A stretch of DNA of 32,256 bases from a virus. Position numbers and translations under genes: made by a program. The notes below the pieces were generated by a model. That model searched no databases, was not told the DNA's origin, and saw nothing but the letters and a program-made list of their open reading frames with translations. Shown piece after piece: positions 3,352 to 5,244 of the stretch; the first letter of the stretch is position 1; each line of letters begins with the position of its first letter. The stretch spans positions 1 through 32,256 of IMG/VR virus record IMGVR_UViG_3300032285_001673. One strand, given 5' to 3'.

Positions 3352-3624
3352 TCACGGGCGCTGTGGACAGCAATGACCGCACCGGGGACAGTCAATCACA
3401 TAAGGGGTGACATCGGGGGTGACATCGGGGGTCTTTGGTTGCGCCAGCCTACTTTCTAAGGCAAAGACCAAATCGTTAACATCTGAAGAATTTGGTCGCT
3501 CCCCCACGGTATAAGCCGCCAAATAATCCCAAGCCTTGTCCATTAGTTCGCGGTCAGTCATAGGGGCAGGCTCTTGCGTAATGTATTTGCGCCCGTTGGC
3601 ACCAATAACAATTCGGTCAGCCAC
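3352..3624 (-). CDS. Small protein with C-terminal Cys cluster
   Basis: The start taken is a GTG that overlaps the stop of the upstream gene and has an AAGGAG ribosome-binding site 7 nt before it, giving 90 residues; an ATG nine codons earlier lies within the upstream gene and is less well placed. Residues 22-62 look helical (TDRELMDKAWDYLAAYTVG, then DLVFALESRLAQ). A short TPDVTPDVTP repeat follows near 65-74, encoded by a tandem DNA repeat, and the protein ends in a Cys cluster (CPRCGHCCP, Cys 79, 82, 85, 86) that could bind a metal. Function unknown. Confidence 0.6.
   Translation of the reverse strand: MADRIVIGANGRKYITQEPAPMTDRELMDKAWDYLAAYTVGERPNSSDVNDLVFALESRLAQPKTPDVTPDVTPYVIDCPRCGHCCPQRP
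3404..3432. repeat. Tandem 12-bp repeat within a gene
   Basis: Two perfect tandem copies of GGGGTGACATCG plus a partial third (GGGGT). Because 12 is a multiple of three, the repeat stays in frame and gives the TPDV duplication in the encoded protein. It looks like a simple slippage expansion of a linker, not a regulatory array. Confidence 0.8.
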
Positions 3625-4024
3625 CGTTCTTCTCCTTGAGTTTGGCTTCAATTTGCCTCACAAAATCCAAAAGGATTGCTGTTGTGTGGTTTATGTTTTT
3701 TCCGTATCTGTGGTTGATAAATTCTTCTTCTTCAAGCACTTCTTCTTCCGTCAAACCGACCCACTTTTGCTGCTCACGCTCCGCAACTTGCCAATCTATT
3801 TCTTTCAATAAGTCTTCAACGGTGTCGCCATGCCCTGTCGCATAGCTGCGTTCCACCATCCATTGTGCAACCTTTTCCCGCTCATGCGCGGCAACAAGGG
3901 CGGCGAAGCGTTCAATGGCGGCGATGCCTACGATACTGTTTGACAGTAATTCCATTGCATTCTGGCCCCCATCAAAACCGGGGTCGGCCTCCACCGCCAT
4001 GCGGATGATGTCGTCGAGGTTCAT
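3617..4024 (-). CDS. Phage early-region protein of unknown function
   Basis: A 135-residue acidic protein. It opens MNLDDIIRMAVEADPGF and continues with IERFAALVAAHEREKVAQWM, a pattern I recognise from many small phage early proteins in betaproteobacteria; their function is not known. The C-terminal half is helical and charged (EREQQKW, LTEEEVLEEEEF, then IEAKLKEKNGG). The ATG overlaps the upstream stop as ATGA. It is placed right after the lambda P-like gene, so it is probably expressed with the replication genes. Confidence 0.7.
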   Translation of the reverse strand: MNLDDIIRMAVEADPGFDGGQNAMELLSNSIVGIAAIERFAALVAAHEREKVAQWMVERSYATGHGDTVEDLLKEIDWQVAEREQQKWVGLTEEEVLEEEEFINHRYGKNINHTTAILLDFVRQIEAKLKEKNGG

Positions 4025-4419
4025 TTGACACCTTTAAGCATTTTCAACCCAGCCAGCATTTCCGCAATCTGCTTTCGGGCTTCCTCGCCTCTGCTCTTTT
4101 CCTCGGCCAGTTCTGCCTGCGTTTTCTGCCTGGTGATTTGCGTGTTTGGTTTCTCAGGAATTGGCGGTCCCTCGCTCAACAGCTTCGCAAACTGCAGGGC
4201 CGACGGTGGGCGATCGGGGCTGATGTATTGCAGGGCGTAATCCATCTTTGGCCGGTAGGATAGTCCTGGCGAACAAACTTCCTTCCAGGTCTGGCGCACA
4301 ACCTCGGCATCGACGTTTGCCCAATGGTACTCAAACGCTGCGCCATAGATCGCGTGCATTCGCGCGAAGCAATACTCAAATCCCGAATCGGCATCGCAAA
4401 AATCATTTGGATTCCACAT
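4021..4419 (-). CDS. Lambda P-like replication protein (probable helicase loader)
   Basis: A 132-residue protein. Residues 18-82 read FARMHAIYGAAFEYHW ... QTWKEVCSPGL ... MDYALQYI ... RPPSALQFAKLL, the pattern of the lambda replication protein P family, in which a short helical domain ends in a P-P-S-x2-x-F motif. The rest (about 95-132) is a charged helix. Lambda P brings the host DnaB helicase to the initiator at the origin. The gene directly follows, and overlaps by 17 nt, the initiator gene, exactly as P follows O in lambda, and it has a GGAGG ribosome-binding site 6 nt before the ATG. It is shorter than lambda P (233 residues), so the loader role is likely but not certain. Confidence 0.65.
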   Translation of the reverse strand: MWNPNDFCDADSGFEYCFARMHAIYGAAFEYHWANVDAEVVRQTWKEVCSPGLSYRPKMDYALQYISPDRPPSALQFAKLLSEGPPIPEKPNTQITRQKTQAELAEEKSRGEEARKQIAEMLAGLKMLKGVK

Positions 4420-5149
4420 TCAAAACCTCCGTTTTTGGTAACCAAAATGCTTTGGGCTTTGGAACAGACAAACCACTCGTCAATTCTGCCATCTGATCGC
4501 GGCGCTGCTCTGATGCAACTTTTTTGGGCGCCTGCTGCCGCCTGACCCAGTTGCGCCAGGTGGCTTCCCAATCGGTCTTGACGCCCTTCTGGCCAGGCTG
4601 GGCAACCCAGTAATCGCGGAACTGCTCAAATGTCTCTTGCGGGTTAAGTTCCGGCCGAGTCTGGCTGCAGAACTCAACCCATGTTTGCGGAAATTCAAAG
4701 AGGTTGTGCAGGCGCGTCCCGCGCTGCATCTCTCTCTTTTTCTTTTGGTTAGTGGTTAGTGGTTGTTGGTTAGTGGTTAGTTGAACAGCAGTCGAACACT
4801 CGTTCAACACCTGTTCAACACCTGTTGAACTACTGTTCTTGCGTCGTTCAGCAGATGCTCGACCGGCGTTGGATTTCTTGTCCAAAAACGATCGGTAAGC
4901 ATCGATTTCCTGGTCGCAACGCGACTGATGCCAACCGTCATCTTTGAGCGTAAAAAAAGTTATCAACAGAAGTTCGACGTCTTCCTGGCTGGCCCCCAGC
5001 TGGAACGACAGAATCTTCGAGTTGTCCGGCAGCGGCCGCTCGCTGTCGTAGTACATCCAAAGCATTCGCAGGTAGGCCATGGTCTGGCCGTCAGTCATGC
5101 GAGCGGTGGCTTTGATAAAGTCACCAATATGGTGCTGGTAGTAGTGCAT
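4403..5149 (-). CDS. DUF1376-type replication initiator
   Basis: Start taken at the ATG preceded by an AAAGGGG ribosome-binding site, giving 248 residues beginning MHYYQHHIGDF; an ATG 23 codons earlier (5218) is possible but poorly supported. Residues 1-90 form the DUF1376 domain (MAYLRMLWMYYDSERPLP, FFTLKDDGWHQSRCDQEI), a winged-helix-like domain of phage replication proteins. Residues 100-134 are a Ser/Thr/Gln-rich linker whose DNA carries the repeat arrays. The C-terminal part ends FRDYWVAQPGQKG...DWEATWRNWVRRQQ, typical of phage O-like and DnaT-like proteins. Two domains joined by a linker that contains the origin is the layout of lambda O. The gene lies between the Cro-like and the P-like genes. 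Confidence 0.82.
   Translation of the reverse strand: MHYYQHHIGDFIKATARMTDGQTMAYLRMLWMYYDSERPLPDNSKILSFQLGASQEDVELLLITFFTLKDDGWHQSRCDQEIDAYRSFLDKKSNAGRASAERRKNSSSTGVEQVLNECSTAVQLTTNQQPLTTNQKKKREMQRGTRLHNLFEFPQTWVEFCSQTRPELNPQETFEQFRDYWVAQPGQKGVKTDWEATWRNWVRRQQAPKKVASEQRRDQMAELTSGLSVPKPKAFWLPKTEVLNVESK
4747..4781. repeat. Five tandem 7-bp repeats (GGTTAGT)
   Basis: Five head-to-tail heptamers: four exact GGTTAGT and one variant GGTTGTT (third copy, 4761-4767). It can also be read as a 21-bp duplication giving the peptide pair LTTNQ-QP-LTTNQ. The other strand is the A-rich motif ACTAACC. The block directly abuts the 11-bp-phased array and lies in the linker region of the replication initiator gene, so it may be part of the origin, for example an unwinding or primer-start element. 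That role is inferred. Confidence 0.8.
4780..4852. other. Putative replication origin: 11-bp-phased iteron array
   Basis: Seven related 7-mers begin exactly 11 bp apart, at 4780 GTTGAAC, 4791 GTCGAAC, 4802 GTTCAAC, 4813 GTTCAAC, 4824 GTTGAAC, 4835 GTTCTTG and 4846 GTTCAGC. GTTCAAC and GTTGAAC are reverse complements, so the sites alternate in orientation; the sixth is the weakest. Two copies form an exact 11-bp tandem repeat (GTTCAACACCT). One helical turn per site puts all sites on the same face of the helix, as expected for cooperative protein binding. Eleven is not a multiple of three, so the array cannot be explained as a peptide repeat. Its place inside the initiator gene matches the lambda origin within O. 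Confidence 0.7.
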
Positions 5150-5244
5150 CGATTCCCCTTTCCGTCCTTCCCAAGGAAACAACGGCAGGCGGGAAGGCTC
5201 GCTTTTCGGTTGGCTCATGACTTCCAACCTAGCCGTGTCTCACA

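Follow-up and report, generated by a model that had tools for sequence, protein, structure and literature searches.

The window, a 32,256-base IMG/VR virus record analysed over its full length, carries on its minus strand a DUF1376-type replication initiator gene of 248 amino acids (4403-5149), which was assigned using Pfam, PHROG and relatives and is read here from the ATG at 5149, with an in-frame TTG lying upstream at 5227; the relatives of the protein start with MHYYQHHIGDF. The original prediction had named the gene as an initiator of this type, and this is borne out by a match to Pfam PF07120 (DUF1376) at 3.9e-22 (78.8 bits against a curated cut-off of 30.1) and by PHROG matches to primosomal and replication-initiation families. 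Matches in BFVD were to DUF1376 and Lin1244/Lin1753-type phage proteins, one of them a named replication protein. The initiator stop codon is overlapped by a 132-aa gene on the same strand (4021-4419), for which no Pfam family was found. BLASTP weakly relates its product to the annotated replication protein P of L252 (25% identity, pair E 4e-10), and the next gene in relatives is annotated as DnaC, AAA ATPase or replication protein P; we regard the window gene as possibly encoding a helicase loader.

In an AlphaFold2 model of the initiator (mean pLDDT 77), the N-terminal domain has four helices plus a wing of two short strands, and is closed by a long helix (residues 76-106) that ends in the basic segment SNAGRASAERRK. 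The codons of this segment, placed with the help of the model and of relatives at the C-terminal end of the helix, occupy 4838-4873 on the minus strand, and we propose that the segment is the specificity determinant of the protein. Residues 108-137, which are encoded by the two repeat arrays described below, are predicted to be disordered (pLDDT below 50) and separate the N-terminal domain from a helical C-terminal domain. When the N-domain fold was compared with solved structures, the matches were to MarR/GntR/CggR-type winged helices and were weak (best E 0.09, none at E<=0.001), so that the winged-helix-like character of the modelled domain is suggestive, not significant; a sequence profile of the initiator yielded no matches among PDB chains.

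The first array is made up of GTTSAAC-type 7-mers spread over 4780-4852. Read register by register on the plus strand, with no strand assigned to the sites themselves, exact copies stand at 4780-4786 (GTTGAAC, overlapping the start of the second, 7-bp array), 4802-4808 and 4813-4819 (both GTTCAAC) and 4824-4830 (GTTGAAC), while copies with one mismatch stand at 4791-4797 (GTCGAAC) and 4846-4852 (GTTCAGC, a degenerate iteron within the codons of the basic segment). The register at 4835 reads GTTCTTG on the plus strand, has three mismatches and is no site, which leaves four exact and two one-mismatch sites in seven registers, all exactly 11 bp apart. On the minus (coding) strand, the linker reads GCTGAACGACG CAAGAACAGTA GTTCAACAGGT GTTGAACAGGT GTTGAACGAGT GTTCGACTGCT GTTCAAC. 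Seven sites in alternating orientation had originally been described: the exact period stands, with at most one mismatch in six of the seven registers, but the site at 4835 is lost, and the central base runs G, G, C, C, G instead of alternating. Orientation is hardly meaningful here, because GTTCAAC and GTTGAAC are reverse complements of one another that differ only at the centre.

A shuffled-codon control had been suggested together with the original prediction, and none of 1000 synonymous-codon shuffles of the initiator gene reached the array's score of 14 (mean 3.5, maximum 10). The maximum was 8 in 1000 resamplings that drew codons from the rest of the gene, and 6 in 1000 shuffles of codon order. 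Among periods of 8 to 24 in this array, all except 11 and 22 gave single sites only; the array is the best-scoring place in the 32-kb window, and tandem GTTSAAC pairs were found nowhere else in it. Cumulative GC skew was set aside as evidence of an origin, having no turning point at 4.8 kb, as was TTATCAACA (at about 4961-4969 in the initiator gene), which is one base from the classical DnaA box and whose codons are not conserved in the relatives compared. A perfect 12-bp tandem repeat (GGGGTGACATCG, 2.4 copies) is also present in the window at 3404-3432, within a minus-strand frame at 3352-3651.

Directly 3' of the iterons on the coding strand, and overlapping the last of them, lies a second array that was absent from the original prediction and that proves at least as important as the first. 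It consists of 5.1 copies of a 7-bp CTAACCA unit (TGGTTAG on the plus strand), identified by Tandem Repeats Finder at 4746-4781 and assigned to the minus strand. A periodic array of 5, 6 or 7 bp directly follows the iterons in 72 of 81 genes, and comparable periodicity was seen in none of 126 shuffled sequences and none of 116 sequences taken 400 bp downstream. In relatives this region is A-rich (0.48-0.53) and G-poor (0.06), with low mean duplex stability; in the window its stability is low, not extreme (z about 1.5 over 4746-4786). We propose that the CTAACCA array is an unwinding or single-strand entry element, and a role after recognition fits the finding, presented below, that the same type of second array serves several iteron classes.

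Comparison of relatives allowed selection on the DNA to be separated from selection on the peptide. Across 48 relatives, synonymous codon identity at identical residues is 0.78 in the 11-bp array and 0.88 (median 1.00) in the 7-bp array, against 0.54 in the N domain and 0.52 in the C part (p 2.5e-10), and the array outscores every one of 200 synonymous shuffles in 33 of 53 non-redundant relatives. Relatives that kept the peptide and not the DNA period were to have spoken against the original prediction; the opposite is seen, with array and period persisting and synonymous codons frozen. The last exact site falls in codon frames 0, 1 and 2 in 49, 21 and 13, respectively, of 83 non-redundant genes drawn from the GTTSAAC pattern scan. 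Both arrays are conserved as DNA, and the linker appears to be under DNA rather than protein selection. It is exceedingly unlikely that the DNA pattern arises as a side effect of a repetitive, disordered, low-complexity linker peptide, as the predicted disorder of residues 108-137 might suggest, given that the period is no multiple of a codon, that synonymous codons are frozen, and that the same DNA is used in all three frames to give different peptides. The earlier argument that a peptide repeat is impossible with a period not divisible by three should be used with caution: in L038 and L097 the array has grown by 33 bp, a length divisible by both 11 and 3 that adds 11 residues and resembles the growth of a peptide repeat. 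Tandem sites are present in the records of 19 of 22 relatives, clustered at one place in each, and the reversed motif occurs in none of the same 22.

To determine how widespread such arrays are, we scanned 2.9 million viral contigs for three exact GTTSAAC sites at 11 bp, which gave at least 120 matches. Among the 120 matches listed, which are no random sample, 104 pass a strict test, falling in the linker of phage initiator genes and in open frames that encode an AGxxSA-type helix immediately before the array, and 112 have such a helix by a looser test; the N domains of the array-bearing genes include both DUF1376 and Lin1244_N. As controls, a spacing of 10 bp gave 6 matches (none strict), the permuted motif TGTSACA at 11 bp gave 55 (none strict), and a spacing of 12 bp gave 107 (8 strict), mostly VEP/QPV tetrapeptide repeats. 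The 10-bp spacing and TGTSACA took the place of the reversed motif CAASTTG, which was rejected as a neutral control because it partly marks an apparent other initiator class. No 11-bp array was found in the TP901-1 rep gene, and searches of plasmids added little.

Several observations made along the way concern further motifs. CAASTTG at 11 bp occurs in the replication-like genes L214, L217, L222, L224, L225, L234 and L236 (...QLDNNLITTCEQDVALEKSREREEK; SNLLATCYQVASTEQNRTEQTRADTDTD), in which short-period arrays follow, and these may form a further iteron class. TGTSACA at 11 bp was seen in L548, L551, L557, L573 and L576, in frames that run on into DKDKE or AEAEADAE repeats and are possibly another iteron class. 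GTTSAAC at 12 bp, not 11, is present in the initiator-like genes L451, L461, L470, L477, L497, L511 and L524, which have a GKLSAxKRKS or GKASAEAR segment.

DUF1376 genes that lack GTTSAAC have other arrays at the same spot. AACCC at 11 bp, predicted to mark GGRP(K/R)K initiators, gave at least 120 scan matches; among the 120 listed, 65 have a GGRP-like segment just upstream by a loose test that lets through a few that look spurious, and several of the remaining listed matches lie in other replication-like genes. When genes were sampled solely by the similarity of their N domains, AACCC arrays were found in those with a GGRP segment, whereas GTTSAAC was found in those whose N domain is 50-60% similar but whose segment is AGKASA. 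We then compared 60 non-redundant genes, with segment classes defined by our own regular expressions. Two or more phased GTTSAAC sites are found in 27 of 33 AGxxSA genes and in 0 of 11 GGRP genes (Fisher 1.6e-6), while phased AACCC is found in 0 of 33 and 9 of 11, respectively (Fisher 7.8e-8), both values overstating independence in that the test treats related genes as independent. In some DUF1376 genes neither a GTTSAAC nor an AACCC array is clearly present. The type of array changes hand in hand with the basic segment that shortly precedes it in the protein, and since both features switch within one N-domain group, this argues against mere descent.

The same co-variation bears on whether the array is bound by DnaA, IHF or a comparable host protein, with the phage initiator being no direct reader of it. 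Host factors play a part at the origins of many phages and plasmids, but here the array changes with the basic segment of the initiator among proteins whose N domains retain 50-60% similarity, a single motif is shared by genes of the DUF1376 and Lin1244_N types, and the sites are, in our comparison, unlike the usual DnaA box TTATNCACA; we hold this explanation to be quite improbable.

Additional classes extend the pattern. A third pairs SAxxRW with GCGAACGC (L248, L381, L430, L085) and a fourth pairs a basic segment with GTCACGCGTGAC (L086, L429), each in few genes. The RepA genes of the actinophages Brujita (L239:955-1821), Denise (L598:601-1473), PFR1 (L599:601-1446), Phrann (L600:595-1479) and Charlie (L601:595-1488) have TCGCGA- or CGGCGC-like sites, in most cases with a phase of 10-11 bp. 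TCGCGA is repeated at exactly 11 bp in Phrann (four sites) and PFR1 (three sites), and at 15, 11 and 10 bp in Brujita, and in the actinophage RepA linker an 8-bp GGAACAGG tandem array comes after the TCGCGA sites. Judged from their sequence, these linker arrays are probable intragenic origins.

Either side of the array, N and C domains swap independently, as if the array were a module junction: relative to the window type, C-terminal domains have been exchanged at the array in L036-L038, and likewise N domains in L030. Such exchanges would also be expected if the array were a recombination seam, kept by the mosaic exchange of initiator modules and not for binding. Exchange alone, however, would not hold sites in exact 11-bp phase while their spacers vary, nor would it give different arrays matched to different basic segments, and synonymous-site selection is strong across the family, which makes a seam very unlikely. 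We lean towards a reading in which phage replicons of a widespread class carry, within the initiator gene, a specificity cassette that consists of a short basic segment closing the N domain, the 11-bp iterons it reads, which start only a few codons further on, and a short-period opener, and that is exchanged as a whole between initiators whose N and C domains differ. The recognition code would then be readable from sequence alone, with AGxxSA-GTTSAAC, GGRPKK-AACCC, SAxxRW-GCGAACGC and actinophage RepA-TCGCGA as the proposed pairs.

Intragenic phage origins are already known, and lambda, which keeps its iterons inside O, had been the precedent cited in the original prediction; the window array does occupy the corresponding place in its own initiator gene. 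In ori-lambda and the origins of Stx phages (gene O, Pfam PF04492), as here, iterons lie in the middle of the initiator gene with an A-rich tract on their 3' side, and ori-lambda shares with the window the order of N domain, iterons, A-rich tract and C domain, with the helicase loader gene coming next in lambda and a possible one in the window. In Stx phages two extra iterons add 13 residues to the O linker (PMC7466680), much as growth of the array adds linker residues in the genes studied here. The systems differ in that lambda iterons are 18-19 bp inverted repeats spaced at 20-24 bp, whereas those of the window are 7-mers at exactly 11 bp, and in that no short period like that of the second array was seen in the lambda A-rich tract. 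No homology was detected between the window initiator and lambda O by BLASTP (E 1.2) or hhalign (probability 0.2%). Since neither iteron type nor protein homology links the two, we have filed the candidate origin as one that would work like ori-lambda and would stand outside the lambda O family.

Taken with the persistence of array and period, the frozen synonymous codons and the lambda-O-like position, this comparison makes it very probable that, as originally predicted, the initiator gene contains its own replication origin, of which the array forms the iteron block. Phased arrays of short palindromic sites would also suit cooperative repressors, and initiators commonly autoregulate, so that the array might instead be an operator for the initiator or a phage repressor, controlling the early operon or the gene itself, with replication starting elsewhere. 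This appears improbable, as the array sits mid-gene, over 300 bp into the coding sequence and away from a promoter, as an operator has no need of the second short-period array that so commonly follows, and as position and order are those of ori-lambda.

If the array is indeed an origin, initiator subunits would bind the GTTSAAC sites, one per helical turn, and, because the period equals one turn, all bound subunits would lie on the same side of the helix, where they would wrap or stack. The bound initiator could then strain or capture the adjacent A-rich, G-poor CTAACCA array, leading to its opening, after which the initiator C-terminal domain and the downstream P-like protein might bring in the replicative helicase.

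Origins of other replicons resemble the window in part. In iteron plasmids of the P1, F and R6K type, direct repeats bound by the initiator stand beside an unwinding element; these repeats are longer and, as a rule, are located outside rep. The oriL of SPP1 lies inside gene 38, which encodes the replisome organizer gp38, and combines direct repeats with an AT-rich unwinding element (PMC6316719), being an origin within the gene for its own origin-binding protein, as is proposed for the window. In the mycobacteriophages Miko, Rachaly and Jeeves, repA together with its flanks is enough for replication, in the case of Miko repA with 171 bp of upstream sequence (Wetzel et al. 2020, PMC7157519). A stop codon in repA abolishes replication; the origin was presumed to lie within or next to repA, and no repeats were found in the region (PMC7157519). 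Both initiator and iteron of these RepA origins differ from those of the window, and the arrays in the RepA-annotated genes of other actinophages fit the supposition of an origin in or beside repA.

A search of mostly open-access literature found no description of 11-bp phased 7-mer iterons, of a short-period second array or of matching between basic segment and iteron, nor of any DUF1376-type origin, in agreement with the original statement that no 11-bp-phased origin is known to be described for this type. Origins have been mapped for few temperate phages. The same two-part layout, written in different words for each initiator, recurs across initiator families in many unrelated phages, which would make start sites predictable; if our reading is right, origins could be read from initiator genes in a large number of phages, actinophages among them. 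The pairing of basic segments with iterons would supply ready-made material for working out a DNA recognition code and would account for selection on the linker acting on DNA and not on protein, and iteron type could serve to classify origin-binding incompatibility, satellites and plasmid-prophages.

Two annotated sequences are of related interest. The Rac prophage gene ydaU of E. coli K-12 (DUF1376, L087:10120-10977) contains SAAGKASVQARR and, after it, degenerate GTTCAAA/GTTGAAG sites spaced at 12 bp as well as a short GATACAGATAAAG array; an active origin, oriJ, has been reported in Rac (PMC3945230). The public record of Vibrio phage 1.183.O has a CRISPR spacer (ncRNA) annotated in the linker array of a DUF1376 gene (L246:2370-2399), a feature that is more likely to be misread origin repeats.
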